A DNA stretch of 64,000 nt from Tubulanus polymorphus. Taxonomy: Eukaryota; Nemertea; Palaeonemertea; Tubulaniformes; Tubulanidae. The stretch lies in the NCBI RefSeq assembly GCF_964204645.1, contig NC_134034.1, forward strand, positions 11,866,462-11,930,461, written 5' to 3'. The notes beneath the pieces are model-generated. The model did no database searches. It was not told the DNA's origin and worked only from the letters and a program-made list of their open reading frames with translations. The stretch's first letter is position 1. Each line of letters begins with the position of its first letter. Of the stretch, positions 13,314 through 43,440 are shown piece by piece. The translations under genes and the position numbers were made by a program.

Positions 13314-13427
13314 CAGGGTCCAGTTCCACAGTTGTGAGTTAAGATTTGACTCTAGAGTTAACTCATTGAAAATGAACTGATTTAACTCAGAGTTAACTCT
13401 AACTCACAACTGTGGAACTGGGCCCTG
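13314..13427. mobile_element. 114-bp foldback MITE (CAGGG termini), source-like for the 39-bp repeat
   Basis: Near-perfect palindrome: CAGGGTCCAGTTCCACAGTT at the left and its complement ending GGGCCCTG at 13427, with TTGAAAATGAACT at the centre. CAGGG termini suggest a hAT-type non-autonomous element, though no 8-bp target duplication is visible. The arm matches the unit of the 39-bp minisatellite arrays across most of its length. A decayed copy lies at about 37335-37449. Confidence 0.75.
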
Positions 13428-16418
13428 AAGTTTTTGTAACAAGGTTAAATAAGCACGCTAGATCATTATTGCGGTTGACGCTAACTGATACTCGATTACA
13501 ACAACAATGACAGACTAGTAACAGTTCAACAGATTGCGTCGATAAAAATATTTTTTCTCCAATAATCTATAGACTGATAGTAGAGTACAGGAGAACCTGC
13601 TAGAGGGGTACAGCTTCACGAAACTAATCAAGTACAAATCTTAATTGGCGAATTCATTAGATTGAGAGAGGACAGTTTAGCAATAAGCAATTAGGTCTGA
13701 TCACAATTCGCTTCATTTGAAACAGGCCTCTGGATTCATCAGGTTTCGACGAACAAATTTGATGAGTTGTAATTGAGCGTTTTCGCAATTTTAACAAGCA
13801 TCGATTTGTTCCCGAAACCCAGGGCCCTTAGGTATTGAATTATTTCCAGGGTAGCTGATAACGCCCGACGGCAATGAGAAAATACAGTAAATTCTCAGAT
13901 CACACACGTTGGAAAAATGAGTTTGAAAATGAGACAAGTTTCGAGACAGATAAGAGAAATTATTTTCAATATAAATATCGTGTAAAACATTTGAAATCGA
14001 AGCACAGTAGACTCTGCTTCACTCACTGCGTTTGGGATCCAAACGATCAATTAAAAATATGATCTACTAGAGTGATAAATTAAGTTCTCTAGGATATAAA
14101 GCAGTTGAAATCAGATTTATACAATGAGACAGTACAGTTCCACAGTTGTGTGAGTTTAACTATGGATTGATTTCAGTAAATTCCAGCAGGGAAGCGTTTC
14201 CCCGATTCCGGTAAGTTTAGGTACAATACTTCAGTTCATTGTACTGCTGAACTGTAGAATCAGTTTTTAGAACCTGAGACCTCTTTTAGAGAATTACGGT
14301 CAGTAGAGGATTACGAAGTCTAAACCTGCAGTTGATTGATATCAAAACGTTTATTGTCTGACAGTTTTGGAGTTTATCAGAGAAAGCAAAATCGATTTCA
14401 CCTTTGAATATCAACTATGGATTTTACGTTTCAATATCAACAGTGGGTTTTTACTTGTTAACTCTAAACATTGAGATAAATATCGGTCTTCCAGTCATTA
14501 CGAAGAGTGATTTATTGCATCAGATTCAGCTATCGACGATTAATCTGAAGATGTAATCGTCTGTCATACGAGTAGAGAATCCGACAGCCTGAAGGCTACG
14601 ATTCACTTGATATTGATCACGAACGTGCGCCGCGCGGACAGCGAATTCCGGGCGGTTTCCGAACCGCCGGAAAAACTTATGTTTACCATCGTCGATATTA
14701 TGCGTCGATGAAGCTGAGTAAATAAGGAATAAACAGGTGGTAGATATGTCTACGAGGAAGACTCCCGTTGGGGCTCCATATCGAATATTGAATACAAGCG
14801 ATAGAATTCTATATCTGTATACGGTAGACTTCCCTCTAGTCGGATCCTATCGATTGAACTTGTATTTAACTGTTTAGCTCAAATGTTTATTGTCCGTTGA
14901 ATCCAATTAAGACGTAGCTATAGCGCTCAAGTTGCACGCACATCCATGGTCCAGAAGGATCATCCACCCTGAGCAGAGTCTACCGATTTACAGGGTTCAA
15001 GTTCGCTAGCGTGGAACCAGTTCCACAACGGGATATTGACAAAGCTAAGATATTGCGGCGCCATCTGGCGTGTGCCGATATCCCATTGAAAGTCGAATGT
15101 GACTACTGAATGAGCGAGATCTCGCTCGACTCACAACTGCGGAACTGGATCCCGATGAAATTTCAATTAAATTTCTTTTCGATCATCAATCATATCAACT
15201 TCATTGAAATATTGCAATTTTCCCGAAGTTCTCATTTCATAAATGCAAATGTGAAACATGAATGCCATATATACATGTATATGCAATCAAAAAAGCAATG
15301 ATGTCTATATGTATGTTTCAGCGAAAACCCACAGTACAAATCTGAACAACAAATATTGCTTTGTTCCTCATGTTTCCGGTGGAATACTTCCACCCATCTT
15401 CCGAGCTTTCCACCCGAAATGTAAGGAATCACTAGAATGTCGCTGAAGATGACTGAAACGCCTAAGTGTAAAATACACCCTGAGGGTGTGGGGGCATTAA
15501 AACAATAGTTGTTTAGATTTGTATTCAGGGTTTTCTCTTAATGATATTCAACAAGACTGGAACTAGTCTCAACTATTTACAATTAAATATCTACCGGGTG
15601 AATATGTATTGGTACAACAGGAGTAGGAGTATTATAACGATACAGACCTCAGTTCCACAATCAACTGCGGAACCAGGTCCTGAATTACATGCATTGATTT
15701 ATCCTACTCATACAAGTCGGTAGAATACGTCAAAAGCTGCAAGAAAATATGAGAAAAACACTTGAACATATTGCAATATTCTTCAAAAAATTTTTGTCAA
15801 GATTTTTCGAAATTTGGATACAATTTCTCGTGTTTTTTTTTGTGGAAAATGATAAGTAATCCATTCTTAGATAATTCATTCAGGTACCCGGGCAGTTCAT
15901 ATCTAAAATCTAATATCCTTTTTTTTGATAGGAAAGTGCCCCATTTTCATGGTGATAGTCCCCCTTTTCTCGAAATAGAAGTACCCCTTTAAAAAGTTCA
16001 GCACGGGCCTGGCGCCTACTTATATTTGCGAGACTCATCGTAAGTTTTTCCTCGCCAATAATGTACCCTATAACCCATAAATCTATATCATAAGCCATTT
16101 TCATCGGAGGCGTCGAAGGTAGCACCCGGTTGTTTTCATAGAAAATAATTCGATGTCTAGGTAAAACAGGTAGTGACCGCGTCCTGTAGTACAGGATACT
16201 GAGAACGCAATTAACGATTCATTTTTCATGTCGCGAGATTGTCGTCGACGTTCGTGAAATACGGGCCGATAAAAACCTATAAAACGTCCCTCATGTTTAC
16301 ATTACACGTTTAACGACCTCGGATATCATTAACTCTTTCATTTCACTGTGTGAACTCAGGCGCGAACTCAGCCCTGCAGTTATACTTGAGAAACTCAGAT
16401 GGCTCAACCCAGTCAGCG
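13428..16418. other. intergenic, mostly unique sequence
   Basis: No gene supported; short open frames here lack codon structure or recognisable domains. Single units of the CAGTTCCACAGTTGTG repeat occur at about 14127 and 15650-15690. GC-rich unique patches lie near 14615-14700 and 15050-15085. Nothing else identified. Confidence 0.5.
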
Positions 16419-17395
16419 TTTGTTACGGGTTACCCCTAAAACAGGGTGAATACCAGCTGATGTTACTGGTTACCCCTAGAACAGTGTGAATACCAGCTGA
16501 TCTTACCGGTTACCCCTAGAACAGTGTGAATACCAGCTGATCTTACTGGTTACCCCTAGAACAGTGTGAATACCAGCTGATCTTACTGGTTACCCATAGA
16601 ACAGTGTGAATACCAGCTGATCTTACTGGTTACCCCTAGAACAGTGTGAATACCAGCTGATCTTACGGGTTACCCCTAGAACAGTGTGAATACCAGCTGA
16701 TCTTACTGGTTACCCCTAGAACAGTGTGAATACCAGCTGATCTTACTGGTTACCCCTAGAACAGTGTGAATACCAGCTGATCTTACGGGTTACCCCTAGA
16801 ACAGTGTGAATACCAGCTGATCTTACGGGTTACCCCTAGAACAGTGTGAATACCAGCTGATCATACGGGTTACCCCTAGAACAGTGTGAATACCAGCTGA
16901 TCATACGGGTTACACCTAGAGCAGTATGAATACCAGCTGATCTTACTGGTTACCCCTAGAACAGTGTGAATACCAGCTGATCTTACGGGTTACCCCTAGA
17001 ACAGTGTGAATACCAGCTGATCTTACCGGTTACCCCTAGAACAGGGTCAATACCAGCTGATCTTATGGGTTACCCCTAGAACAGTGTGAATACCAGCTGA
17101 TCTTACGGGTTACCCCTAGAACAGTGTGAATACCAGCTGATCTTACCGGTTACCCCTAGAACAGGGTCAATACCAGCTGATCTTACGGGTTACCCCTAGA
17201 ACAGTGTGAATACCAGCTGATCTTACGGGTTACCCTTAGAACAGGGTGAATACCAGCTGATCTTATGGGTTACCCCAAGAACAGTGTGAATACCAGCTGA
17301 TCTTGTGGGTTACCCCTAAACAGTGAGAATACCAGCTGATCTTACGGGTTACCCCTAGAACAGTGTGAAAATCAGCTGATCTTGTTTGAACAGTT
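16419..17395. repeat. 40-bp satellite, about 24 copies
   Basis: Highly regular 40-bp unit: GGTTACCCCTAGAACAGTGT then GAATACCAGCTGATCTTAC. Variants alternate between TTACTGGT, TTACGGGT and TTACCGGT. A 120-bp block ending in ACAGGGTCAATACC occurs twice (about 16941-17060 and 17061-17180), so there is local block duplication. The low divergence implies recent expansion or homogenisation. Confidence 0.97.
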
Positions 17396-17946
17396 TACCC
17401 TCAGAATAGTCTCAATAGCGACCGCTTACCCCAGGAACAGTTTCAGGACACTGGATCTTGACTTTTTGCTGAAAAGCCAAACTAAAAACTGACAACTAGT
17501 GAACTCGATGTCTAAGTGAGTGAAACATTCTCACTGAGTGAAACCAGGAACATGACGTGTTCAACATGAATAATTAAATAAAAATCCTTGAGGGCACCTT
17601 CCTCGCGATGCGCTTCAAAGACTAGCATCGATGCTTTGAATAAAACAACTTTTCTGATGTTGCCGATGTGACAACATACGTCGTAAAGTAAGTCTTTCAT
17701 CATTTTTCAATTCGGTATAAATTCCACCTGGGTCCAAATCAACTCCGTCTCCTGATCTCACTGATCTCACTGATGCCGTCAGAACAGTAGACGGGAATTT
17801 TCTTCATTGTTATTCGAAATGTTAACCTATTAATCAATCTAAGATCAGTCTATCGTTAGAACATGGGAAACCAAAGTGATTCAAACGTTTCATTCATGGA
17901 GGCAGCTTCAGACGGAAATGTGCCGAGGTATTTTTTCGAGACATTT

Positions 17947-18186
17947 CAGGGGCGGATCTAGGATCTGATTTAGGTAGGGATGCACCCCAAAATAAAGGAA
18001 TATCATAATTGAAAAGGCATCCGAAAGAAAGTTAGGAAAACATTCATAGAAATACGGAGAACAAGACTATGAATTTAAACTTTTAAGTTCAGTTAAATTT
18101 TTCATTTTCCCATTAAATTTCAGGGTAACTTGACATTTTAAAGGATGTGCACCCCCTGCACCCTTCCCTCAGATCTACCTCAGCAT
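17947..18186 (+). mobile_element. hAT-like element, CAGGGGCGGATCTA terminus
   Basis: Starts CAGGGGCGGATCTAGGATCT and shares about 160 bp with a second copy at 49636. The right end (CAGATCTACCTCAGC) is a poor inverse of the left. CAGGGGCGG ends are typical of hAT-derived MITEs. No transposase frame is present. Confidence 0.6.
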
Positions 18187-20479
18187 TTTTTCCACCGAAC
18201 AAGAATTTCATGATTTATGTATCGACACACCGTAGGCGTAGGACCGAGCCCCGCAGTAATCTATTAACCCAAACCTGCTGAACCGGGTCCAGAATACCTT
18301 CAAGATAGCAATGAAAGTTCTCTAAATTAGCCGACGGATCGACTACCGTTGTGGGTCTTGAAAGATTAATCTCCCCGTAATTTCGCGAACCACTCTCATC
18401 ACTTGAAAGGGGTCAGTAAGCAGGCCGTCTGGGGCGTTGATATGAATAATGAATAGGTCAGGCACGGGAAGATGAAGCGATCTAATTTCCTGCGTATGAC
18501 GTTTGTATTGATTTATGAATGAACTCAGGAGATTCGTCTGCCACGTCGGTTTTCAGAACGCAGTCACCATCCCCGAAAAACCCCCGCGGGGCGAGGGGGC
18601 TAATGGCTTTCAAGAGTAATCTCAATACTCGCATTAAACGTTTTCAATCCTGCTTATAAATAGTATCAAACAGAATGTTAGATTTCGTAGCCGACGCACA
18701 TGAGCTTTCTATAAATGATCAATGGCAAATAGTTGAGACGAGATAGTTTTACAAATAACTCATTTGACTAGGAAGCTAGTTGCTTGTTGCTTGTTGAGAA
18801 TTTAGCGTAACTCTGTAGTAAATTGCCACAATCAATGATCGAATTTGAACTTGAAAAGTCAAATTTGAAACCCTTCTCAGTAAAGATAAGGAGTAATGGA
18901 TGAAATGTTAAGTCCGAAAATGTTCCAAACCCAGTATTCCTAAAGTTGACTATTAGGATAAAGCTGATATGTCGAATAAACTAATAGCTCAAGGAAACAT
19001 TTATATAAACTTAAAATATGGGAATTTTTCCAGATCTAGCAACAGTACAGTGAATAAATTAAATTTTAATTTTTACAGAAATATTCTTTTTTCTTCGAAT
19101 AAAAAAAATATCTTCCAAATTCGGTTTTATGGCACGGTTTCTAGCAGCACATTCTATTGATATGAACGGACATTTTTTTTCAAATTTGTTTAAAAAGCAT
19201 TGAAAAATTCCACATCAAAAACATGCGATTCGTTACTTTAAATATCTTCACTTGCCAGGGTTGAATTCAAACTAAGCAACCTTGCGAAAAGGTGGAAAAT
19301 TTTGCAGGTAAAATATTTTTTTTTGCGAGCGAAATTGTACCGGTTACTATACATACAACATTGAAGGCATGTGTGATGAAAATATGAAAAAAGATGCCAG
19401 GCATGCAAGCGCGACTACTACAGTTCATAATCCTAGATTTTACATTTTTTATGAAACGTTGAAAACGTCGAAGAAGGTTATTTATTCTCGAAAGTATCAG
19501 CGAGTAGTTGACTAAACTATATCAACAAATTCATCAATTCCATTCCAAAAGTGACGAAATTGGAATTTCTTCAGAGATTTTGAGGAATTTCATTTCATCG
19601 ATTTCACAGGTTTTGAGTTAATAAACTTCAGTCAAATACCCGCTGTATACTAAAGCATTAGACAATAGCTACGAGTTATGTTATATCGAGAAAATGAAGC
19701 TTAGATGATGAAAATTAGGACCCAGAACCGCAGTTATTATGGGTTAAATTCGGAGAGACCCAGTGCCACAGTTAACATACATTCAAACACTGGTCAGCTA
19801 ACACAGTTGCAACATAATTTCAAGTTTGCTAGTAGTACAAAATGTTTTCTAAAAATCCATATTCAAGATTTTGGGATAAATAAAAATCGATATTCAAGAT
19901 TTAAACAACTATCAAACGTAAGCCGGCCATCCTTCCTTGATTTCTTGGAGCAGAATGGCACGAAATGCGACGCTATATTAAAAGAAATATCGGCTTCTAG
20001 ATTAGAAATAACACCCACGGCAGCCCTGAAAGGTGAAGGCCATCCTCTGTTATAAAACATAATAAGAAGGAATTATTGTTTACACTGTTGCGATGGTTTA
20101 TTTGTCAGCGCAATGGATTTACGCCGTTATTTTACCGGGGATTCCTAATCGTCGAGATGAATAAAAAGGGATATAAGATTACTAATCAACCACGCGTCGA
20201 GGATTACCGGCAGGCGAGGGGATTCAACCCGGGGGGGATATTCACCCCGGCAGACGCTGAGGAAGTTAACATGGTTAACTGAATATGAGCTAATCCGCGA
20301 CAATGTACTCGACACGATACTACCGATTTTCATAAAAAATGAAACCGAAAACCATTTAAACGTAACATGCGTACATGAAACTACATTGTACATTGTAACA
20401 TGAACGATATCTCGGCATTCAATATTGATTCTAATTTCTAATTCTATACCGGACAAAGAGCCACTGTGGTATTGTGGGC
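18187..20479. other. intergenic, no supported gene
   Basis: AT-rich and largely unique. The longest frame (19705-20055, plus, 116 codons) has no recognisable domain, no splice context and no codon bias. A degenerate CTAAAGTTGACTATTAGG motif occurs at about 18942. Nothing else identified. Confidence 0.5.
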
Positions 20480-20975
20480 TTATCCTCACGTGGAACTGAG
20501 TTTATGTGTCAAGTTACACAATTGCGGAACTAGATTCAATCAAATTTACCTCACACAACTAGTTCCACAGTCAAATGAAACCTACACAACTGTGGCACTG
20601 GGTCCACAATCAAAATAAACCTACACAACTGTGGAAGTGACTCCATAGTCTAATAAAACCTACACAACTGTGGAACCGGGTTCAGAGTCAAATTAAAGCC
20701 ATACAACTATGGAACTGGGTGCAGAGTCAAAATAAACCCACACAACTGTGGAACTGGGTTCAGAGTCAAATTAAACCCAAACAAATGTGGAACTGGGTTC
20801 AGAGTCGAATTAAACCCACACAACTGTGGAACTGGGTGCAGTCAAATTAAACCCATACACCTGTTGAACTGATTCCATAGACAAATAAAACCTTCACAAC
20901 TGTGGAACTGGGTTCAGAGTCAAAATTAAACCCACACAACCGTGGAACTGTCCACAATTTGACAGTGTAGACTGG
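20480..20975 (+). repeat. 39-bp minisatellite array
   Basis: About 11 copies of ACACAACTGTGGAACTGGGT followed by CAGAGTCAAATTAAACC. Units vary between 36 and 39 bp. Same family as 25460, 28425, 32480 and, inverted, 30905, 35225 and 43010. Confidence 0.95.
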
Positions 20976-21647
20976 CAGTCCTGCAGTGTTGTAGATTCTA
21001 CTTGAAGCTCAATTGCTGTTAGATTCTGAACCCATTTCTCATATGACTTGTTATTAATAATATAGTTAACCGTGGAACTGGGTCGCAGGTATTCTCTAAA
21101 ATTTTTTTCAAAAACTATATTAATATCAACACATCGAATAATAAAATACTTCTCTATCTTATATACAAACTGACACATACAAACACCGAGTGATAATGTA
21201 CGGCAATTAGAATCTAGTAATGAATCTATTTTAACAACTATACGTGTCAGTTTTCTCAAACATTTGAGTATCTTCCCTTCGGATCATAGGCCTGCAAAAT
21301 ATTCATATGAACCAATGGAAAAAACAGCGCAGATAATACCAACGAGCAAACCCCCGTCCTTAACATTTCAATTACTAGTATTTCATGTTTTAACTCTCAG
21401 AAATATCATTTTGATAAGCGGAAATACTATGTAGCAAATACAGGTTATCATCTAAATGCTAAACAATAAACGACCGATACGCCCCCTGGCTGAGATCTCT
21501 TGAACTTCGAATAATCTCAATAAGCTTTTTTCGTGTCAGCAGAAAAAAGATATTTTTTACTATTTTGGAAAAAATGTCCACCGTCATATAATCACCTATG
21601 ACATCATCAATTATCGCCAGACAATGCGTAGAGTGAAACTCAATGAA

Positions 21648-21935
21648 CCCTTTCAGTGCTGACTGATTAATACCCTTTAGTGCTGGTGATAATTTCAAAA
21701 TTTAAAAAAATCCAAACCCAGTGTGTTGAATAATGGGAATACCACTATAGTATGTCTACACCTTGGTGCGGTGTATCGTTAGTTACTAATATTTCACTAT
21801 GTTTGACAGGTGCTGCCATCTTTCAATAGAGATAAAAACTAATTACTAATTACATCAATACACCGCAGTGCAGTGTACTAGCAAAATCCATCACTGATTC
21901 GTACACCGCACTGCAGTGTAGACGCACTGAAAGGG
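21648..21935 (-). mobile_element. piggyBac-like MITE, copy A (288 bp)
   Basis: Ends CCCTTTCAGTGC and GCACTGAAAGGG. Flanks TGAA and TCAA look like a decayed TTAA duplication. The interior has the palindrome ACACCGCACTGCAGTGT. It is inverted relative to the copies at 36502 and 59550 and has the same length as 36502-36789. Confidence 0.8.
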
Positions 21936-22210
21936 TCAATCCAAAAGATGACTTACACTTGCTTAATTGATTTGAAAATAAAAATTGAGCCTGAAAAATA
22001 GTGATGAATTCAGGAATGTACTAGTTATTACGCTTAGTAAGCAATTTGATGATGTCATAGGGGGATTTACGGAAGTTATCATATTTCTTATTCCGAGAAA
22101 TGGTCGATACAATTTCTCCCCGCCCCCTGAAACAAACCGAAATTGGAATTTAGTCCCAGTTTTGCCGAAATGCGAATTTTTGCCCAAAAATAACTTTTCA
22201 CGTGGTCAGA

Positions 22211-22651
22211 TCAGATATTAGTTTCATCACGCGCGCTTCGATCGGCCATTTTTATACCGACGACAGCGGCGCCATCTACGCAACCGTTATCGACGAGTAA
22301 CGGTCGCAGTTGATCGGCCTTCGAGAACGACGACGTCGCCCGGGTAACGAGCGTATTGTTGCCGCCGAGTTTGCTACTCACGTTTGACGACGATGACGAA
22401 GTTTTGCGATGACGCGGAGAACGCTGCGACGACGCGCCGCACGAGCTACAGTCGGCGTCGTCGTGGCGACGTAGACAGAACACGCAGCAGACGAGCCGTC
22501 GGAATTCGACGCGATATTGACGCATCATTCCGGCGAACACGATCGGGTTCCAAACCGACACGAAAAACAACAGGTAACCAGAGATCGTGTACATCATAGT
22601 ATTTATATTTCCACTTTCAACAACTCCGCTCAGTGTTATAGGCAGCCAAAC
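22211..22651 (-). CDS. Prostanoid-receptor-like GPCR, exon 2 (TM7 and tail)
   Basis: Second and last coding exon, residues 270-415 of a 415-aa receptor. It begins after a TTTTGTAG acceptor (22652-22653) in phase 0 and ends at a TGA at 22211. It encodes the end of TM6 and ECL3 (VWLPITLSGVVESG), TM7 with NPIVF in the NPxxY position (about 304-308), a helix-8-like segment (MMRQYRVEFRRL) and a likely palmitoylated CCVFC. The rest of the tail is Ser/Arg-rich. The prostanoid-receptor TM7 arginine (R in the usual LRxxxxNxIxDPW) is not present, so prostanoid binding cannot be assumed. Joined with 51459-52265. Confidence 0.9.
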   Translation of the reverse strand, partial: VWLPITLSGVVESGNINTMMYTISGYLLFFVSVWNPIVFAGMMRQYRVEFRRLVCCVFCLRRHDDADCSSCGASSQRSPRHRKTSSSSSNVSSKLGGNNTLVTRATSSFSKADQLRPLLVDNGCVDGAAVVGIKMADRSARDETNI

Positions 22652-22721
22652 CTACAAAATAAAATATCATTCTAACATTTAGATTCACAATTCACTAAAT
22701 TCCTTCCGAGGTACTACAGGG

Positions 22722-24418: not shown

Positions 24419-24555
24419 CTGGGGCCGGTTGCATAGTTACGGCTTAGACTTAAGACCAGTCTAAGACCAACTTAGTTCTATAGCCAATCTAAAAACTTAA
24501 GACCAGTCTTAAGACCACTTTTAGACTTAAGTCATGACTGTGCAACTGGGCCCTG
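24419..24555. mobile_element. foldback MITE, source-like for the 47-bp repeat
   Basis: Inverted ends CTGGGGCCGGTTGCATAGT and ACTGTGCAACTGGGCCCTG. The interior contains CTTAGACTTAAGACCAGTCT and TAGTTCTATAGCCAATCTA, the same blocks that form the 47-bp arrays at 25020, 47575 and 53995. hAT-like by its GGGCCCTG end; the target duplication is not clear. Confidence 0.65.
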
Positions 24556-25019: not shown

Positions 25020-25190
25020 TGTATCTCAAATTGCTGGCTTGGTTATAGAACCAAAATCAGCTTAGACTGGTCTTAAGTTGTTAGATTGGTTATAGAACCA
25101 CAATGAGCTTAGACTGGTCTTAAGTTGTTAGATTGGTTATAGAACCAAAATTTCTCAGAAATAGTTAGATTGGCTGTAGAACCATATCTT
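25020..25190 (+). repeat. 47-bp minisatellite array, short
   Basis: Three copies of TTAGATTGGTTATAGAACCA plus CTTAGACTGGTCTTAAGTTG. Same family as 47575-47880 and, inverted, 53995-54265. Confidence 0.85.
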
Positions 25191-25459: not shown

Positions 25460-26000
25460 TTACTCAACTGTGGAACTGAGGATAGGGAATGTTATTCATG
25501 TTGATAAAAACCCACACAACTGGGCAACTGGATTCAGAGTCAAATTACACCCACACAACTGTGAAACTGGATTCAGAGTCAAATTACACCCACACAACTG
25601 TGAAACTGGATTCAGAGTCAAATTACACCCACACAACTGTGAAACTGGGTTTAGAAACCATATCTAATCCATACAACTGTGTATTTGGATCCAGAGTTAA
25701 ATTGAACCCTCAAAACTGTCGAACTGGATCCAGAGTCGAATTATACCCACACAACTGTGGAACTGGATCCAGAGTCAAATTATACCCACACAACTGTGGA
25801 ACTGGATCCAGAGTCAAATTATACCCACACAACTGTCGAACTGGATCCAGAGTCGAATTATACCCACACAACTGTCGTACTGGATCCAGAGTCAAATTAA
25901 ACCCGCGCAATTGTGTGGAACTGGATCCTGAGTCGAATTAAACCCACACAACTGTGGAACTGGATCCAGAGACAAATTCAACCCATGCACACAACTATGG
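25460..26000 (+). repeat. 39-bp minisatellite array
   Basis: About 13 copies of CACACAACTGTGGAACTGGA plus TCCAGAGTCAAATTATACC. The 39-bp period is divisible by three, so frames of 66-150 codons stay open on both strands; this reflects period length, not coding. Confidence 0.95.
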
Positions 26001-26564: not shown

Positions 26565-26765
26565 TGATGGCCCACACACAACTGTGGAACTGGATCCAGA
26601 ATCAAATCAAATCCACACAACTGTGGAACATGAAACAAAATGCTACGAGCAGACGTACCAGTCTAGTCTGAAATGCCGGTCTCAAGTCTAGTCTGAAATA
26701 CCGGTCTCAAGTCTAGTCTGAAATACCGGTCTCAAGTCTAGTCTGAAATACCGGTCTCAAGTGAG
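26565..26765 (+). repeat. two 39-bp units followed by a 25-bp repeat
   Basis: 26570-26635 holds two units of the 39-bp family. 26660-26765 holds four copies of AAGTCTAGTCTGAAATACCG (25-bp unit). Confidence 0.85.
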
Positions 26766-28424: not shown

Positions 28425-28955
28425 ATTGTGGAATCGAATTAATCGCACACAACTATGAGAGTGGATCCAGTCAAATTGAACTCTTATAACGGTGGAACTG
28501 GGTTCAGAGTCAAATCAATCCCACACAACTGTGGAAATGTCGAACTGGATCCAGAGTCAAATCAAACCCACACAACTGTGGAACTTGATCCAGAGTCAAA
28601 TCAATCCCACACAACTGTGGAACTCGCTTCAGAGTCAAAGCAATCCCACACAACTGTGGAACTGGGTTCAGAGTCAAATTAAACCCACACAAGGGTGGAA
28701 CTTGATCCAGAGTCAAATCAATCCCACACAACTGTGGAAATGTGGAACTGGATCCAGAGTCAAATCAAACCCACACAACTGTGGAACTTGATCCAGAGTC
28801 AAATCAATCCCACACAACTGTGGAACTGGGTTCAGAGTCAAAGCAATCCCACACAACTGTGGAACTGGGTTCAGAGTCAAATTAAACCCACACAAGGGTG
28901 GAACTTGATCCAGAGTCAAATCAATCCCACACAACTGTGGAACTGACTCAGCTGC
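28425..28955 (+). repeat. 39-bp minisatellite array with duplicated block
   Basis: About 13 copies of the 39-bp family (CACACAACTGTGGAACTTGA and variants). A block of about 203 bp (28530-28735 and 28733-28937), marked by an ACAAGGGTGGAACTTG variant, is duplicated. Both strands are open by periodicity only. Confidence 0.95.
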
Positions 28956-30904: not shown

Positions 30905-31165
30905 TGGGATCCAGTTCCACAGTTGTGTGGGTTTAATTTGTCTCTGAACCCGGTTCCACAATTGTGTAGGTTTGCTTTGTCTCTGGATCCAGTTCCACAG
31001 TTGTGTGGGTTTAATTTGTCTTTGAATCCAGTTCCACAGTTGTGTGGGTTTAATTTGTCTCTGAATCCAGTTCCACAGTTGTGTGGGTTTGATTTGTCTC
31101 TGAATCCAGTTCTACAGTTGTGTTGGTTTAGTTTTACTCCGAACCCAGTTCCACAGATGTATGTT
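30905..31165 (-). repeat. 39-bp minisatellite, inverted orientation
   Basis: Seven copies of CCAGTTCCACAGTTGTGTGG plus GTTTAATTTGTCTCTGAA, the complement of the unit at 25460. The 128-codon frame through it is periodicity-derived. Confidence 0.93.
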
Positions 31166-32449
31166 ACAGTGACTAGAGACTCAATTGCCTGTGTTCGGAG
31201 GTGCCACCTGTTTTACAATAAGTTGTTTGGGGCAAAAAATGAAAATTATTGTATAACAGCTATTTACGGAATCACGTTGTTTTTCTAACGCTCGTACGCC
31301 ACACAGCTACAGGTGATGTAATAATTATATTAGTACGAGTAGACTGAACATATTTCTGGAGAGGAATGCACAAAAAGTCTTGAAAATCTGATATTTTAGG
31401 TTTGCGGAATACCCTATGATTATTACAGACATTTCAACCATCTGATGCAAACTCATATTCTAGTAAATTTAACCTTTTCTAAAGAAGTTTTTTTTTTCAA
31501 AATTCGGTCATCTTTAAACAATTGCGTACAAAAGCTCTTTATCATTGGATTTCGGAATGAAGAGTTTAGCTATGTAGGTACATGACCTTACGGATATCTC
31601 GTGCCCTCAGGACAGTAACCGATGACTACTGCCAGTACTGAGTACCGATAACTGCTGCAGGTTCTAAGAGAGACTGATAAGAATAATTCAACAGTCTTCA
31701 CTTCAGCGTGCAGGAAACTTGAATAGAGGTATGAGAAATTCTGTTAGAATATCATTCATCTACGGAGACCAGTTGAAAGAGTTCATTAGGAGAGAGGGAG
31801 GGAGGGAGATGGAGAGGAGGGAGAAAGCCCCTGAATGGAGATTTAATCAATTCAGAAATTCAGCAATTCATTTACAGTGCGGCAACTTTGGAAGACTTTC
31901 GTAAAGACGGGGTAAGGTTTCGCCGGGATTAGGAAACCAAGGACTCCAGACTTCAATCAACTCTTCGGATACCGACCTCCCAGACATTTCGCCTTAGTAC
32001 ATATCGCCTAATCGAACTACGGACAGATATCGTAACCATAAAACATCTCAATTAACATCAAAATTATAACTTAGGAAAAATAAAACCATTCACGTGGAAA
32101 ATGTAGAGTTATGCAGGACAGGTGCGAGCTAACTATACTAAATCCTAAACAATGCTTAGTAATATTTCTCAGTGAAAAGTTTTAGAATATTTGTTGTTTG
32201 TAAACATTCGATGGAACGTTGTTGAACACAATGATTCGTTCATAAAATAACAGACATGCCAGGTATGCGAAAATAGAACATCTCCCCCGACCGACCCCCC
32301 AACCCCCTCCGCGGGGAACGGATAAAAATGCTAAATATCGCTACTAGACAGAGAACATGTGTGCAACAAACTTAGGTATTGTTCTTAGTGGTGATTTATA
32401 CGGCTAATTTTAGTTCCAGTAGCACAGTTATGATAAATGCGTTTCAAAG

Positions 32450-32775
32450 GAATTGAAAATGAACTATTTGATTCACGCAAACTGTGGGACTGGGTCCAGA
32501 TTCAAATTAAACCCATACATCTGTGGAACTGGGCCCAGAGACAAATAAAACCCACACAACTGTGGAACTGGATACAGAGTCAAATTAAACCCCGACAACT
32601 GTGGAACTGGGTCCATATTCAAATTAAATCCATACAACTGTGGAACTGGGTCCAGATTCAAATTAAACTCACACAACTTTGGAACTGGGTCCAGAGTGAA
32701 ATTAAACCCACATAACTGTAGAACTGATTCCAGAGTCAAATTAAACCCACAGAACTGTGGAACTTTGTCCTTGGC
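32450..32775 (+). repeat. 39-bp minisatellite with MITE remnant at its edge
   Basis: Seven or eight copies of the 39-bp unit begin at about 32480. The left edge (32452-32466) is AATTGAAAATGAACT, the centre of the MITE at 13314-13427, so the array sits where a MITE right arm would be. Confidence 0.9.
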
Positions 32776-34395: not shown

Positions 34396-35224
34396 TAGCT
34401 AGAATATGCCAATACCCGCTCTCAGATTCAGCGAAAAATCATTTGTGGCAGACGCATTATTTGATACACTTTTCCCCCCTCTCTCTCTCTCTCCTTTCTC
34501 TCTTTCTCTCTCCGCACTTACACACAGCTATTAATGCAATATCAAATAACCCCTTGTTCTCAAATTGACTAGTCGCATTTCGTTTCTCGGCGCAAAAAGA
34601 CCGAGTTCTTTTTTTGGTTTTCGCTGACGAAAATGACAGTCGCACTTAGCGAAAAGTTTCTCCGATACGGCTGTTTATAATACGCGGCGAAAGGCGACTA
34701 ATTGTAAGTAATCGCGAGGTAAACGCCCTTTCGGCAACTGCTCTGCTCTAATTGCCGGTGAGGGAAATTATTCTTTGATTAGTCCAAAGAGAAAGCGTTG
34801 TTTCACCAAGTTTCGGGAATGTCAATAACAAGTCGGTGCAATCCTGTCTATATGCATTACGGGTTTGAGTTACGGAGCTGTGATGCCTGATGTTATTGTA
34901 ATGCGTTCTGAAACGGTCGATTCGCGATCATTAATCATTTTCTTATGATCGTTTTTGTAAGCGAAAAGTCTGATTACTCCAAGCTGATATCAAATCGTCA
35001 CATATTGAAGATTAAGATATATCAATTATAATAAGCATGGTTTTTACTTATGAATTTTTGAAAATGTTTATTGTGTTTGGGATTACTGATCAGACTACTA
35101 ATTAACGAACATACTTCTACTTTTAATTCAACTAGAGGATTATCACACATATTAATCAAGATTAAAATCTTTTTTTAAATCTAAATGTCGAAGAAAGTAT
35201 TATGAAAGAATTCATAAAGAGAAA

Positions 35225-35500
35225 TTTAATTTGACTCTCGATCCAGTTCCGCAACACAGTTTTGCGGGTTTGATTTGTTTCTGGGCCCAGTTCCACAGTT
35301 GTGTGGGTTTAATTTGTCTCTGGGCCCAGTTCCACAGTTGTGTGGGTTTAATTTGTCTCTGGGCCCAGTTCCACAGTTGTGTGGGTTTAATTTGTCTCTG
35401 GGCCCAGTTCCACAGTTGTGTGTTTAATTTGTCTCTGGGCCCAGTTCCACAGTTGTGTGGGTTTAATTTGTCTCCGGACCCAGTTGCACAAATGTGTGGC
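35225..35500 (-). repeat. 39-bp minisatellite, inverted orientation
   Basis: Seven copies of GGCCCAGTTCCACAGTTGTG plus TGGGTTTAATTTGTCTCT. Very low divergence between central units (GGGCCCAG variant fixed) suggests recent homogenisation. Confidence 0.94.
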
Positions 35501-35934
35501 TGCCGTTTTGTCCATCGTTAATAAACATTGCAAAAAAAATGCTAAGACATAAAGATCCTCGACTGGCAGAAATAAACACGGATCAGGAATGTTGCGAGAG
35601 TAAAGATTAACCGAAGGAATTCTCATTCCGGTCAGGTTTTATCGCTGATAGTATCTACTCCGCAATACGCATAAATCGCGGCAAATTAAACAAAACGCCT
35701 GAAAGGCGAAATAGCATCGGAGACTCTGGTTTGGGGGGAGGGAGGTGGGGAGAGTGTGTGAAATTTACATGAATTTCATCGCGTGTAAATTATACATTAA
35801 AGCCACCATTTCAACGAGTAAACAACGTTATAAATCATTAGTGAATTCACGTATATTTGTCGACTGATACCTGCATTCGAGAAACTGAGATAAACTATAG
35901 ACTCCGTTCAGCGTTCAGTGTTCTCCGTAACAGG

Positions 35935-36215
35935 TTTTTAGAGGGGTGGCCACCCCTTTCATTCATTTACACATCCGCCCCTCTGAAAATCGTTAGCCAC
36001 CCCTTATAGAATATCTGCTGCCCCGACCAGAGTGGATGTCAATATTCTATCAATGCTGATAGTTGCTTTGAAATATATTGAAGTAATCTGAAAAATAGAA
36101 GATTACACCGAAGCTTAATCTTTGTTTTTTTTGGGTGGATTGGAAGCCTTGTTATTTCAGCAGCCACGATATCATAATGCAGCCCCTTTAATATCCAAGC
36201 ACATGGAGGAAACAC
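35935..36215 (+). mobile_element. dispersed repeat R1, copy 2
   Basis: Homologous to 23400-23780; begins with the palindromic AGAGGGGTGGCCACCCCTTT. An (ATT)n microsatellite of about 17 units follows at 36241-36292. Confidence 0.78.
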
Positions 36216-36239
36216 TAATCCGCTTATATTCTGGACACA

Positions 36240-36296
<57 letters not shown>

Positions 36297-36501
36297 ATTT
36301 ATAGTGCCTGTATCCATAAAAAAATGTGATCAAAGACACTTTTGTACCAGTAATGAAAACAGATGCATTTTCAGACGTCGCCGGAAAATTGCTAAGCTGT
36401 CAGATAATCTAATAGAAATACATATCACTTGGAAAAAAGGTTTCAATTCTATTCCCCACTTCCTATTCACGTGCGTACATTAATTTTTGCCCTTATCTTA
36501 A

Positions 36502-36789
36502 CCCTTTCAGTGCGTCTACACCGCAGTGCGGTGTATAAATCAGTGATAGATTTTGCTAGTACACCGCACTGCGGTGTATTGATGTAATTAGTAATTTGTA
36601 ATTATCTCTATTGAAAAATGGCAGCAAGTGTCAAACATAGTGAAATACTAGTAACTAACGATACACCGCACTGCGGTGTAGACGCACTATAGTGGTATTC
36701 CCATTGTTCAACACACTAGGGTGGAATTTTTTAGAATTTTCAAATTTTCTCCAGCACTATAGGGTATTAATTAGTCAGCACTGAAAGGG
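36502..36789 (+). mobile_element. piggyBac-like MITE, copy B (intact TTAA duplication)
   Basis: TTAA at 36498-36501 and 36790-36793 flanks a 288-bp element with 12-bp terminal repeats CCCTTTCAGTGC/GCACTGAAAGGG. Three internal copies of the palindrome ACACCGCA(G/C)TGCGGTGT. TTAA target sites with CCC...GGG ends are the hallmark of the piggyBac superfamily. Confidence 0.9.
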
Positions 36790-37334
36790 TTAAAGGAGTC
36801 AATGCGGACCCGACACCTGGAGTACAGAATGAAGCCCGACGAGAATGAAAGATGCACCGGAGAAGACTAAAACTTGACTAATGCTTTAATGAGATTCAAT
36901 TCGCTTCAATTTAAGTCAATTAGCGAAGATCGTCGAAGATCGTCGCCGTCTTAATCGCGAGAAACTTCATAATTCGATCTCACTTGCAGTGTCGCGTATA
37001 ATCGGTAAGGGTTCCGCTGTAAAAACAGAGACCGTCTAACATCTTGTATGTCACGCGTCGTAGAGAATCCTTACGCAGCCAGACGTAGCTCGGGGAGGGG
37101 GCTTGACTTTGAAAGTATCGCAATAACTATTGACTTTTTACCTTGAAATTGAGGCAGTGGAACCTCGTTATGACGAACTTGGACGCGGACCTGGAAATAT
37201 GTTCGTTATAACCGATAGTTCAGTTATATCCGGTATGAAATGATTGAAATTTTCCGACTTGGGACGAAGTTCTAGGTTTGTAATTGCCGATAAATCAAAT
37301 GAATCTGGAAAACTGGATCTTGGAGATAAAATTC

Positions 37335-37449
37335 TAGGACACAGTTCCACAGTTCTGAGTTAAATTTGACTCTAGAGTCAAAACATTGAAAATGAACTAA
37401 CTTTAACTCAGAGTTAACCCCCGCAACTCACAACTGCAAAACCAGGCCT
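37335..37449. mobile_element. decayed copy of the 114-bp foldback MITE
   Basis: CACAGTTCCACAGTTCTGAG, TTGAAAATGAACTAAC and AACTCACAACTGCAAAACC align with 13314-13427 over its whole length. Confidence 0.7.
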
Positions 37450-37714
37450 AGGTTTGTAAGAACCGGATCAGATAAATCGGTTAACTGGATCCTAAAGAGG
37501 AGGGTCGTACTGAAATATTCCTGGCCAGAAAGACGATGAATGCCGAATGGGAAAGATCCATTTTTCAGTGTAAATACAATATCCGCAAAATGTGATCCGT
37601 CATCTGAGTCCGGATAAGAAGCCTGTAGTGAGACACAGATACCAGAGAAAACTACTCATTCCACTGGTCAATAGAATGCATTACTCCAATGTGGAAGCAT
37701 CAAAAACAATATTG

Positions 37715-37895
37715 ATCTGAGAGGAGAGAGAGGAAAGAGAGAGGATAGTGTCTGAGAGGAGAGAGAGGAGAGAGAGGAAAGAGAGAGGAGAGTGTCTGAG
37801 AGAAGAGAGAGTAGAGGAGAGAAGAGAGTGTCTGAGAGAGGAGAGTGTCTGAGAGGAGAGAGAGGAGAGAGAGGAAAGAGAGAAGAGTGTCCGAG
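37715..37895. repeat. GA-rich low-complexity tract
   Basis: Repeats of GAGAGGAGAGAGAGGAAAGA and GTGTCTGAGAG. Purine strand is plus; complementary frames are artefacts. Confidence 0.95.
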
Positions 37896-38194
37896 ATTGT
37901 CCCGAAATGACCAAACAAACCACTGATTTCATCTCGCCAGCAAAAAACCAGATCTTGTTCGTTCATCTTACAAATGCCGTTCTATTTTTCTCGACAGACC
38001 AAATATTACACAAGATTGTCGCAACAAGAGCTACCAATCAAGAGCTACCAATCACCGTTAGCAGTCAGAGAATATGTATGGTTGAATATCTCCGGGAACA
38101 GGTCTCAAAAGTTCTCAGAAAAGTTTCAATCTTCAATTCAAATAGAAAAATCGACAAAAAGTTCTTAAACCTTTGAAGGTTATATGAATAGTTA

Positions 38195-39010
38195 TTTGCA
38201 AGTCTCGATGTATTCGATTAGGCAGCCAACAACAAGAATAACGCCGATCAGTCGCTTGCCGGTTCAGGCTGGTCGAAAGATTGTTTGAATGAACCGGAAC
38301 CGAAATAACCAATTGTGTGCTTCGATTTAAAACCATAAATTCTGTAAACTCGTCCGCCGATCACACAACCATATCTGTAATAAGATAGAAACCCACTATC
38401 TACAGATTAAAAGAAGTTAAAAACGAGAATTTATTTAATAAATCTAAAATATATATAAGACACGACGTTTCGATCTCACCCTAGAGATCATCGTCAGGTG
38501 TGAGGTAAGCAGTATTATTAGTTGGTATTATTTGGTATTAGTTGGTTATTATAATCAGGTACACCTGACGACGATCTCTAGTGTGAGATCGAAACGTCGT
38601 GTCTTATATATATTTTAGATTTAATGAATAAATTCTTGTTTTTAAATTCTTTTAATCTGTAGATAGTGGGTTTTTTTATCTTATAATCCGTTCACCACGT
38701 TTGAGTGTGATGGTTATCGTTCAACTATGTCTGTATTTCCGATTTCAAAATCAAGCCTCCCTCAGGTGTGGTCGGCTTGTAACAAAAATCGAACGCAATC
38801 TACCGATCAATTAAATATCAGGATCAATCCCTATTTTAAGATCATCATCTCATCAAGCCGCGATCACACGAGCATTTTTTGGCCCGGAACAACGATGTCT
38901 TTCGTAACGCGCTATTTTGGAAAAACTCGAAAAAATTTGATAATTTTCCCTAATGACATAAGTTTTTAATTGTCGAAATGTTATCACAGTTAAACGAGGT
39001 CCATAAGATC
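38195..39010 (+). mobile_element. dispersed repeat R2, copy 1, interrupted by a foldback
   Basis: 38200-38380 and 38720-38865 match 48870-49170 (AATCAGTCGCTTGCC-like, ATGAACCGGAACCGAA, GACAATCCCTATTTTAAGAT-like blocks). The two halves are separated by the foldback at 38381-38683, which is absent from the other copy. Confidence 0.75.
38381..38683. mobile_element. 303-bp foldback with two hammerhead-like cores
   Basis: Arms begin TAAGATAGAAACCCACTATC and end with the near-complement ATCTTA at 38683. Each arm contains the core: minus strand CTGACGA (38491-38497) to GAAAC (38467-38471), plus strand CTGACGA (38565-38571) to GAAAC (38591-38595), each enclosing a GATCTC/GAGATC hairpin. Inserted in repeat R2. 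Confidence 0.78.
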
Positions 39011-39394
39011 CAAAGTCACGATCATCGTGTGTAGCGCGTGTTCTACGTACCGCTAAGCGTATTTGTATTAATACATCCTGTATTAACGTGAAAAATATTT
39101 AACATTTAAAGGTTTTTCGCAGCGCGAGGATCAGCTGCAGGAACTACTGCTGAAAACAACGACGACGACGGAGCAAAAAAAAAAAACAATATCACTTGAA
39201 AACTAATCAAACATGAAACGAATTCGTTTTTCACGACGAAATTTAATTTCCTGCGAAACGAGCAGTCGTCACAAACCTATTGAACCATCGACGACGAAAT
39301 GGAAAAAACTTGTCGATTTACTGAGATACTCGTACGAGAGAACTGCGCTGAGGTTCTCATGTTGGAGAGTAGTGCATTTGAAAGTTTGACTGGG

Positions 39395-39830
39395 AGCATG
39401 GACGGGGAGAGAGAGGGAGTGAGAGGGAAGGGGAGAGGAAGACGGAGAGAGAAAAGAGAGAGTTAGACAGGGCAGGAAGGGAGGGAAAAGGGGAGAAGAG
39501 GGAAAGGGAGAGAGGGAGAGAGGAAGAGGGGTGAGAGAGAGGGAAAGGGAGAGGAGTGAGCGAGGGGAAGGGGAGAGGAAAAGGGAGAGAGAAATGAGAG
39601 TAAGAGAGGGCAGGAGGGTAAAGGGAGGGAGAGAGGAGTGAGGGAAAGGGGGAGAAGAGGGAGTGAATGGGAGGGAAAGGGAGAGGGAGAGGAAGGAGAA
39701 GGGAGAGAAGAGTGAGGGAGGGAAAGAAGAGTGAGAGGGGGGAAAGGAAGGAGTGAGAAAGGGGATGAACGGTAGTGGAGGGAGGTAAATGGGGAGGGAG
39801 GGAAAGGAGAGAGAGAGGGGCAAAAAGTAT
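39395..39830. repeat. GGGAGA-rich low-complexity tract
   Basis: About 435 bp of almost pure purine on the plus strand (GGGAAAGGGAGAGAGGGAGA). It produces Ser/Pro/Leu-rich frames of 169-201 codons on the minus strand in all three frames, so none is likely coding. Confidence 0.95.
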
Positions 39831-40199
39831 AAGAGGAGGAAGAGATATATAGAGAGGAGGGTAAGAAAGATAGATGAACAAAAGTAAAAAAAAAAAACAG
39901 GAATGAGGGCGAGTTATCTTTTCTTTCTTGAAAAGGCTGATGACATTTGAAAAAAAAAACATGGCACATCATTTTCCCTCATAAAATATTCAGCAGAAAA
40001 TCTGAGAAAAATTTACCAAAGTAATATACAGAGAAACATGAGAATATGTCCACCTTATCGCTGAACAATGACGCCAAGTTTCCAGCAAAATGTCACCATC
40101 CCCCGCCTTCAGATTTTTGGTAGAATTTCATTGTGAATTTGGATCGCATCCAAATTTGGTCATATTGATACAAAGCTGAACTCTACATTGATATCATTT

Positions 40200-40735
40200 T
40201 ACTGTACAGAGGGTAACACTTATTGTACAGAGGGTTACCCTTACTTTACAGAGGGTTACCCTTACTTTACAAAGGGTAACCCTAACTGTAAAGAGGGTAA
40301 CCCTTTCTTTACAAAGGGTAACCCTAACTGTACAGAGGGTAACACTTACTGTACAGAGGGTTACCCTTACTTTACAGAGGGTAACCCTAACTGTAAAGAG
40401 GGTAACCCTTTCTTTACAAAGGGTAACCCTAACTGTACAGAGGGTAACACTTACTGTACAGAGGGTTACCCTTACTTAACAGAGGGTTACCCTTACTTTA
40501 CAAAGGGTAACCCTAACTGTACAGAGGGTAACACTTACTGTACAGAGGGTTACCCTTACTTTACAAAGGGTAACCCTAACTGTACAGAGGGTTACCCTTA
40601 CTGTACACAGGGTAACACTTACTGTACACAGGGTAACCCTTACTGTACAGAGGGTTACCCTTATTTTACAAAGGGTTACCCTTACTGTACAGAGGGTAAC
40701 CCTTACTGTACAGAGGGTAACAGGATATACAGTAA
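40200..40735. repeat. 21-bp minisatellite (heptapeptide-like open frame)
   Basis: About 25 copies of TGTACAGAGGGTAACCCTTA (21-bp unit). One plus frame stays open for 199 codons as a heptapeptide repeat (YCTEGNP). The recurring differences between units change the amino acid (Cys/Phe, Glu/Lys, Asn/Tyr, Pro/Thr), with no excess of silent changes, as expected for non-coding drift. Confidence 0.93.
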
Positions 40736-41759
40736 GGGAACCTCAACTGAACAAACGTACAAGATTAAATTCTTATCAGTAAATTAAACTCTCAGTGAGG
40801 GGTCGATGAGGTCAAACAGACACTCTCAGCAGCAGTAACAAGGGGGGTGGAATAAATTAATTAGGATTTCTTATCACTGTATAATTTGAGATTAACCAAT
40901 GAATGTAACATCTTTATTCCTTCCAGCAGTAGCAGCAGTAGCAGCAGGGCTGTGCGAACTAACTACTCTTCATCACTTCATTGGCTCAATCTTAGTGGTA
41001 CATTTCAGTCGACAAGTAGATGGGAAAAATTATTTGGGAGTTCATCTATAAAGTCATCTCAGTTTATAATTCTTTTTTCTGCACAAATGTTTTTCCGTTG
41101 ATTGAACAACTCATTGTACAATTAGGATACAACCCACATGCGTTTTTTGGAAAATGAAATGTAATCCATCCTCAAATAATTTATTCAGGTACCCGGTTTT
41201 GGGACTCGGAGGAGAGGGTTCGGATCACTGTTCTAAAGGGTCGGACTGTGTAGTTAAATCATTCCGTAAAAAGGTTCAATTACTTGTAAATGTTATTTCT
41301 TAATATCGGCGATAAATACTTTAAATTCAAGGTCATAAAAATACCATAAATTTAAAGTCATAAAAATCGTATATAGATGTCGAAAAAATTATATTCAAGA
41401 TAAGTCTTTTTGACTTCTCGAAATAGAACTGCCCCTCAAAAAAAAAGCTTGACACGGGCCTGCAAATATCGATGTAGGATTCATGAGATCGATTTCAGAA
41501 ATCGCACAAGGACACCGGGTAGATCACATCGAGTCCTTGATTCTATGGTAAGTAATCTAATCATCGTAGCTTATCTAATTATAGACAAACCTATCAGATA
41601 CAACTATCTAAATATTGATGTACAATGCCATTATATAATAGCTTTTTGTGCGCATATTTAGTTCAATGAGTAATAATCCGAAAGGCTCCACGTGTGAATG
41701 GTAAAGCTGTAAGACTTCTTAACCGTTTACTGTGAGTCTTCTGAGGTGAAAGACACGTA

Positions 41760-42590
41760 GGTAATGCAGTTCTCTTCAAAATAGAAAACTGACAGATATT
41801 TGACCAGTTTCATACTGAGTTTATAGACTTATAGTTGAAGTGACAGTCTTATAGAGCAGTTCTCTTCAAAATTGAAAACTGATGGATATTTGACCAGTTT
41901 TATACTGAGTTCATAGACTTATAGTTGAAGTGACACTGTCTTATAGAGCAGTTCTCTTCAATTTAGAAAACTGATGGACATTTGACCAGTTTCACACTGA
42001 GTTTATAGACTTATAGTTGAAGTGACAGTCTTATAGAGCAGTTCTTTTCAAAATAGAAAACTGATGGAGATTTTCACCAGTTTTATACCGAGTTCATAGT
42101 CTTATAGTTGAAGTGACACTGTCTTATAGAGCAGTTCTCTTCAATTTAGAAAACTGACAGATATTTGACCAGTTTCATACTGAGTTTATAGACTTATGGT
42201 TGAAGCGACAGTCTTATAGAGCAGTTCTCTTCAAAATTGAAAACTGATGGAAATTTTCACCAGTTTTATACTGAGGTTATAGACTTATGGTTGAAGCGAC
42301 AGTCTTATGGAGCGGTTCTATTCGTTACAAATAGAATACTGACAAATATTTGACCAGTTTCATATTTAGTTTATAGACTTGCGACAGTCTTATAGAGCAG
42401 TTCTATTTGTTACAAATAGAATACTGACAAATATTTGACCAGTTTCATATTTAGTTTATAGACTTGCGACAGTCTTATAGAGCAGTTCTATTTGTTACAA
42501 ATAGAATACTGACAAATATTTGACCAGTTTCATATTTAGTTCATAGACTTGCGACAGTCTTATAGAGCAGTTCTCGACAGTCATAAACCA
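41760..42590. repeat. tandem repeat of about 90 bp, later copies shortened
   Basis: About nine copies with GCAGTTCTCTTCAAAATAGA, ATTTGACCAGTTTCATACTG and CTTATAGTTGAAGTGACAG. The last three lack the TATAGTTGAAGT segment and carry TATTTGTTACAAATAGAATA instead. Confidence 0.92.
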
Positions 42591-43009
42591 CTTGCTGAAA
42601 CCTCTTCATTCGAAACCAATAAAACATCAAGTTTACACATATAACGGAACCTTATTGTCTCTCCGTGATATCGTCTATTGATAACCACTAATGAGAACAA
42701 TCTACCCTTCATCAGAATCTTTGTGAAATAATGAAACGTGTGTCTATGATTATTATCCGGTTTTTGTCAGGCGCTGAATTTTCCCTAATAACCACATCTT
42801 CACTAAGCAAACATACTAAATAAATAATTACATGCACAGACGGCCTCGCCCGTGGTCGTAATTTTCTCAGGAGCTTCGGACAATTTTCTATGATTCTTCG
42901 GAGCGCTCGATAATAACGGGATTCTACCGAGAAAATAACACGTTCTATACACAGTGTATGTAATAATATTACACCAGTAATAACCTATACAGAGTCTCTA
43001 CCAGAACGT

Positions 43010-43440
43010 GTGGGTGTAATTCAACTGTCGATCCACTTACACAGTTGTGGGGGTTCAATTTGTCTCTGAACCCAGCCAGTTCCACAGTTGTGGGATTCAA
43101 TTTGTTTCTGAACCCAGTTCCACAGTTGTGTGGGTGTAATTCAACTTGTGGATCCAGTTCCACAGTTGTGTGGGTTCAATTTGTCTCTGAACCTAGCCAG
43201 TTCCACAGTTGTGTGGGTTCAATTTGTCTCTGAACCCAGTTCCACAGTTGTGTGGGTTCAATTTGTCTCTGAACCCAGTTCCACAGTTGTGTGAGTTTAA
43301 TTTGTCTCTGAACCCAGTTCCACGGTTGTGTGGGTTCAATTTGTCTCTGAACCCAGTTCCACAGTTGCACATGTCTAATTTGACTGTATCCAGTTCCACA
43401 GTTGTGTAGATAAATTTCAACTCTGAAACCAGTTGTACAA
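43010..43440 (-). repeat. 39-bp minisatellite, inverted orientation
   Basis: About ten copies of CCAGTTCCACAGTTGTGTGG plus GTTCAATTTGTCTCTGAAC; some units carry an AGCCAGTT insertion. Frames on both strands are periodicity-derived. Confidence 0.94.

Follow-up and report, generated by a model that had tools for sequence, protein, structure and literature searches.

A 64,000-nucleotide stretch of the Tubulanus polymorphus genome (NCBI RefSeq assembly GCF_964204645.1, contig NC_134034.1, positions 11,866,462 to 11,930,461 of the forward strand; hereafter the window, counted from its first letter) holds a small palindromic miniature inverted-repeat transposable element (MITE), which we call MITE1, and a set of minisatellite arrays whose 39-bp unit is a segment of its arm. 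We propose, with a probability of about 0.6, that a MITE of NuwaI type acquired a duplicated arm end, that an array grew inside the element, that the array-bearing element transposed, and that loss of its body left a minisatellite. Plain MITE, MITE with a tandem arm and bare array all occur in this one genome and are likely stages on the way from MITE to free minisatellite, presumably in that order of time. Both arms of the one element gave repeats, a second element offers a parallel case, the outcome is tied to chromosome position, and the founding junctions are legible at single-base resolution, which makes the proposed steps testable.

Besides the composite described below, the window contains these copies and relatives of MITE1:

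13314..13427, plus strand: MITE1, young copy; a 108-bp near-palindrome, GGTCC..GGGCC, at 13317-13424, with CAG and CTG flanks
37337..37449, plus strand: MITE1, second, more diverged copy (ends placed by eye; BLAST matches 37342-37418)
12242..12364, plus strand: very degenerate MITE1 relative whose two arms can be made out by eye

The first of these is present as the initial annotation described it, the element proper now being refined to 108 bp. Our genome search covered 268 Mb in 77 contigs, twelve large contigs making up 262 Mb, and the best 40 of 2525 MITE1 candidates were scored. Alignment of 45 copies together with flanking sequence shows an element of 107 to 111 bp, typically 108, that starts with GGTCC or GACCC and finishes with GGGTC or GGGCC. 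CAG or CTG stands on both sides in 38 of the 45 (CAG/CTG in 15, CTG/CTG in 12, CAG/CAG in 11, other combinations in 7), and the same CWG trinucleotide lies on both sides in 23. The element had been labelled hAT-like. Elements of the hAT group have an 8-bp target-site duplication; around the 45 copies (24-bp flanks) no consistent 8-bp duplication was seen in an inspection by eye, and together with the CWG flanks this leads us to abandon the label. NuwaI elements of the PHIS superfamily have a 5'-CWG-3' target duplication and a terminal inverted repeat (TIR) that usually starts GGG (PMC4482050). MITE1 shares the CWG duplication and, less clearly, a TIR starting GG, and by its target duplication it is a palindromic MITE of NuwaI type, the CAG/CTG class standing apart. 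It differs from the NuwaI transposons of that source in that we find MITEs only, with no matching transposase at the 8 places examined. An autonomous partner of such a MITE would be expected to encode a DDE transposase and a Myb/SANT protein and to have the same ends.

The PHIS transposase family (PF13359) itself has at least 150 matches in the genome. Twelve PHIS-type matches (G000 at C1:15911046 and 11 others) have an identical score and a 400-residue open frame and are spread over seven chromosomes, a likeness that suggests a recently active family; its ends were looked for and not identified.

Tandem arrays in the window were located with Tandem Repeats Finder (TRF). Those related to the arm of MITE1 are listed here, the strand being the one that reads CCAGTTCCACAG:

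20557..20950, minus strand: 39-bp array, about 10 units (TRF)
25508..25985, minus strand: 39-bp array, about 12 units (TRF)
26572..26632, minus strand: piece of the 39-bp family, two units (ends by eye)
28488..28945, minus strand: 39-bp array, about 11 units, with a 203-bp higher-order repeat (TRF)
30909..31160, plus strand: 39-bp array, about 6.5 units (TRF)
32415..32764, minus strand: composite in which a degenerate MITE1 body (opposite arm, centre, arm; about 32415-32497) passes in register into a 39-bp array (32480-32764)
35255..35499, plus strand: 39-bp array, about 6 units (TRF)
43033..43407, plus strand: 39-bp array, about 8-9 units, indel-rich (TRF)
9470..9919, minus strand: 20-bp array, its unit the terminal half of the 39-bp unit (TRF)

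TRF confirms the seven 39-bp arrays that had been reported, four in one orientation and three in the other. Read from CTG to CTG, the 39-bp unit aligns over its full length with the left terminal segment of the MITE with a score of 50, whereas 2000 shuffled versions of it (first-order Markov) average 14.9 and peak at 31, and the earlier identification of the unit as an arm segment is borne out. So is the statement that the 20-bp array is built from half of the unit (score 38, null maximum 28). The claim that the MITE centre is kept at an array edge near 32452 also stands: TTGAAAATGAACT lies at 32453, adjoining the array and within a true MITE remnant. This degenerate element, at about 32415-32497, can be aligned with the MITE along its entire length, and the array continues it in register. 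With at most one mismatch TTGAAAATGAACT occurs at six sites in the window (8958, 9048, 9157, 13366, 32453 and 37386); three of the six fall inside an unrelated 109-bp tandem unit (window 8958-9234) that has no recognisable MITE1 arms.

These forms can be arranged in a single course of events. A 108-bp palindromic MITE of NuwaI type would insert with a CWG target duplication, and a tandem duplication would then take the target trinucleotide together with the terminal 36-38 bp of one arm. In the 39-bp family the duplication would reach from the CTG beside the element to a CTG inside its left arm, and microhomology between such CTGs may have been the founding step; in the 44-bp family described next it would take CAG, 38 bp of the right arm and ACT. 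Each unit would bear a MITE terminus because the duplication includes the target trinucleotide and the terminal arm segment. The array would grow inside the element by slippage or unequal exchange, the array-bearing element, with inverted repeats still at its ends, could jump, and transposition would thus be the means of spread. Decay or deletion of the body (centre and opposite arm) would finally release a free-standing minisatellite.

The array-bearing stage is seen most clearly in a sister family from the other arm, reached via one MITE locus (L001). Its 44-bp unit is 38 bp of the right terminal arm between CAG and ACT, the latter probably host flank, and an exact 33-mer of the family occurs 124 times in the genome. 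At the loci examined each of the two families has one junction. For the edges we took 20 loci spread over the chromosomes, from 54 loci among the first 100 places listed, leaving out of the counts L001 and L002, which had been obtained as MITE loci, and five loci with too little left flank. At the inner edge, 10 of 20 loci score above the 99% control for the opposite MITE arm; at the outer edge, 1 of 15 does. The outer edge begins no more than 6 bp from the MITE terminus in 10 of 17 cases (simulated control 25%), a count that omits L129, L136 and L139, which lie at the terminus by eye. Body scores in the composites are 53 (L001), 86 (L002), 80 (L136) and 39 (L140), with the 99% control at 24, and L136 reads in the order CAG, array, arm, centre, opposite arm, CTG. 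These composites are MITEs with a tandemly repeated arm, which is what the initial annotation had imagined for the 39-bp arrays.

A parallel case comes from a second small element, MITE2, and the 47-bp arrays:

24419..24555, plus strand: MITE2, small inverted-repeat element with CTG on both sides; a 15-mer occurs twice, 47 bp apart, giving 1.4 copies of the 47-bp unit
25039..25151, strand unassigned: 47-bp array (TRF), its unit aligning with MITE2
47577..47873, strand unassigned: 47-bp array of the same family as that at 25039 (period and consensus, by eye)
53987..54260, strand unassigned: 47-bp array of the same family as that at 25039 (period and consensus, by eye)

The repeated 15-mer is ACTTAAGACCAGTCT. 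The unit of the array at 25039 aligns with the MITE2 copy L102 over 66 columns, more than one period, with a score of 80 (null maximum 33). MITE2 starts GGGCC, and CWG is seen by eye on both sides of three copies (L101, L102, L105). An array-type 32-mer of the family has 581 occurrences in the genome. Flanks of the three 47-bp arrays in the window reach best scores of 38 and 39 against MITE2, where the 95% control is 36 and the 99% control 78. Judged from the alignment of the unit, MITE2 is the source of the window's 47-bp unit.

At the loci examined, the 39-bp arrays share one derived unit. Our loci are a non-random sample, most coming from the best 40 of 606 matches and the remainder from exact-pattern lists; we left out one locus with poorly chosen coordinates and no array (L094) and three that are MITE loci and not arrays (L081-L083). 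From 47 loci, 445 units of exact length give a single consensus, CCAGTTCCACAGTTGTGTGGGTTTAATTTGACTCTGAAT. Shared variants occur at positions 31, 37 and 39, and the locus consensus sequences match the overall one at 0.87 to 1.00. In MITE copies the middle of the arm has a sequence like GAGTTAAGATTTG, unlike the array consensus. The same unit, of left-arm type, is found in both orientations at the 47 loci, and the junction that a fresh left-arm duplication of MITE-type sequence would create is matched exactly nowhere in the genome. Units differ on average at 3.33 of 39 positions within loci and 4.38 between loci (54 loci, 527 units; arrays with fewer than five exact units left out), and the nearest neighbour lies in the same locus for 0.40 of units, against 0.02 with shuffled labels. 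Variants at positions 37 and 39 are mixed inside loci and common to several of them. We take this pattern to mean that the family was born once and then spread, being renewed to some extent within loci. A search for a MITE subfamily whose arms are of the array type gave none among the best 40 of 2109 candidates, whose matches reach at most 90% identity and lie in many cases at known MITE1 places; palindromes of the array unit itself (spacer up to 17 bp) were found at 3 places, against 1 for the control.

The corresponding distances in the 44-bp family are 2.97 within and 5.01 between loci, of 44 (17 loci, 98 units). The units do not settle the relative age of the two families, because within-locus divergence is 0.068 per base in the 44-bp family and 3.33 of 39 in the other.

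The listed arrays lie mostly towards chromosome ends, and more so than MITE1. Place counts for exact patterns refer to the first 100 places by contig among the matches listed; the lists cover contigs C1-C7 fully for MITE1 and the 39-bp and 44-bp families, and distances were compared there. On C1-C7 the median distance to the chromosome end is 3.86 Mb for MITE1 (87 loci), 2.81 Mb for 39-bp arrays (46 loci; p 0.004) and 0.52 Mb for 44-bp arrays (25 loci; p 3e-11 against MITE1). None of the 54 listed 44-bp loci is farther than 2.5 Mb from an end. The 5 Mb nearest an end, 46% of the genome, contain 50 of 53 and 43 of 45 loci in the two 39-bp lists and 50 of 52 in the 47-bp list, the 47-bp list reaching into C6 and that of MITE1 into C8. 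The complete 39-bp list (76 places) has 45 loci on the twelve large contigs. C10, about 5% of the genome, carries 23 of them, at 1.2-2.9 and 9.3-13.7 Mb; two places on contig C37 were left out of the position analysis. Among the 150 PHIS transposase matches listed, 18 are on C10, all between 4.06 and 9.20 Mb. High recombination may be the cause of the array position.

Several observations weigh against the course of events proposed here. The 15 MITE1 copies with CAG..CTG flanks have no CTG..CAG counterpart (0 copies), and a plain 3-bp duplication does not explain this class. The 8 places examined (L147-L154, with L156 extending L147) yielded no transposase with matching ends; one of them, L152, has one near-match on one side. 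MITE1 is itself end-biased, with 62 of 96 listed loci within 5 Mb of an end, and distal DNA is not richer in tandem repeats overall (0.126 against 0.168 in ten and ten 5-kb samples, one interior sample being nearly all satellite and one distal sample having 7% GC and being probably masked). Among the 20 loci of the 44-bp family, the MITE centre exceeds the 99% control in just 2, with one more in reverse (L134); this last, one of the 10 composites, may be a separate MITE beside an array, and outer-edge alignments over-extend at some loci, in both directions. In the 39-bp family, left edges lie near the MITE terminus in 26 of 64 cases (controls 29%, Rayleigh p 0.21), a weak bias in the 65 arrays that remained after those with fewer than four cores and edges truncated by the locus end were left out. 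Of 122 flanks, 1 on one strand and 2 on the other rise above the 99% control for MITE inner sequence, where chance would give 1.2 and 1.0, and inner flanks overall do not stand above outer flanks (p about 0.6). This family offers one good case, window 32415-32764, for the passage of an array-bearing MITE into a bare array.

The other edge results are to be read beside these. The phases of 59 right edges peak weakly around 16 (Rayleigh p 0.04). Degenerate direct-orientation units continued into 22 of the 122 flanks, so array edges were placed somewhat too far inward. With MITE-bearing windows removed from the controls and the threshold at the 99% control, one inner (right) flank of 58, that of the window locus at 32 kb, has the MITE centre. 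Three of the 58 (L100, L036, L046) have an array-type inverted arm, against 0 of 61 left flanks; inner and outer flanks are both slightly above controls for the inverted arm. L100 (C10:12352150-12352950) holds two 39-bp arrays in opposite orientation, the short spacer between them being without the MITE centre. The expectation that array edges keep the MITE centre or opposite arm fails at nearly every 39-bp array examined (4 of 58 inner flanks, about 1 expected at these thresholds) and holds in 10 of 20 arrays of the 44-bp family.

For the 39-bp family, copying of bare arrays is a serious rival: born once from a MITE arm, the family would have spread as bare pieces into double-strand breaks or from circles, with no transposase involved. 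We regard this as possible and as the less probable account. It fits the array flanks at 39-bp loci, which look mutually unrelated by eye, the near-random edge phases of the 65 arrays, the lack of a body at nearly all edges (for which old age may instead be the cause), and the variants at positions 37 and 39, mixed within and shared between loci, with the mean distances of 3.33 and 4.38 of 39; against it, the composite at 32415-32764 and the 44-bp sister family display the route through an array-bearing MITE. The initial annotation had each array expanding in place, independently, from its own MITE and from either arm. That reading agrees with the same composite and with a MITE family that gave arrays from both arms (39 bp from the left, 44 bp from the right), and for the 39-bp family it is largely refuted by the one derived left-arm unit at 47 loci, the lack of an exact match to a MITE-type junction, and the failure to find a MITE with array-type arms among the best 40 of 2109 candidates; we consider it very improbable. 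What had been observed, namely the arrays, the match of unit to arm and the remnant at 32415-32497, is upheld, while the hAT label and the separate seeding of each array are not.

We give as little credence to the reverse order, in which the arrays are the older and supplied the MITE with its ends. A young MITE lies, by eye, inside the first unit of a 39-bp array (L081) and another within a 44-bp array (L001), each at CAG, and some MITE insertions are therefore younger than the arrays they hit. The units, however, hold the trinucleotide that flanks the MITE, and those of 44 bp also the apparent host flank, as insertion would give, and MITE1 occurs on every listed chromosome whereas 39-bp arrays are concentrated on few. 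Returning to the array-bearing MITE, a tentative and rather doubtful extension would have arrays act, through the terminus and target trinucleotide in each unit, as ladders of alternative ends from which a CWG transposase could launch segments of any length, one event per arm yielding two "multi-ended" MITE families that settle or amplify chiefly in distal chromosome regions and shed their bodies with age. If so, the age of a family could be read from the share of its arrays that keep a body, the 44-bp family being young and the 39-bp family old.

That MITE sequence can give rise to tandem repeats, in plain, composite and bare forms, is already established for Xstir, miDNA4 and Tetris (as described in PMC9659126 and PMC12628747). 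Here too plain MITE, bare array and composite coexist with one repeat sequence, as in the Xstir type. The repeat of Xstir and the Xmix MITE of Xenopus (Hikosaka and Kawahara 2004) is derived from the TIR according to PMC9659126 and from internal sequence according to PMC12628747; the likeness lies in the coexistence of MITE, array and composite with a MITE-derived repeat, and the difference in the CWG-flanked MITE, the 39- and 44-bp units that include the trinucleotide, and the short dispersed end-ward arrays found here. In the miDNA4 MITE-satellite of Xenopus tropicalis (Scalvenzi and Pollet 2014) the array likewise grows inside the MITE and arrays without ends appear later, but a captured internal repeat is proposed where we find a terminal arm segment (PMC9659126, PMC12628747). 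The Tetris foldback element of Drosophila virilis resembles our case in that TIR repeats lead to satellite arrays, and differs in element type and in its repeat, named TIR-220 (PMC9659126, PMC8268682). A search of open-licence literature, judged mostly by title, found no report of NuwaI together with tandem repeats or of minisatellites from NuwaI MITEs.

In coral CMITE arrays, whole MITEs with flank stand in tandem (PMC2872659), and L082 (C6:3297050-3298000) is comparable, with whole MITE1 plus 22 bp of flank repeated at a period of 130 bp and CAG at the bounds; coral CMITEs are piggyBac-type TTAA MITEs, unlike MITE1 (PMC2872659). At L006, MITE1 occurs twice inside a 21-bp minisatellite at a spacing of 174 bp, and its left flank is CAG, though the neighbouring repeats suggest a CTG target. 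In all, TRF returned 83 rows for the 64-kb window, some overlapping, among them a 56-bp unit in two arrays 2.6 kb apart (window 143-821 and 3445-4316).

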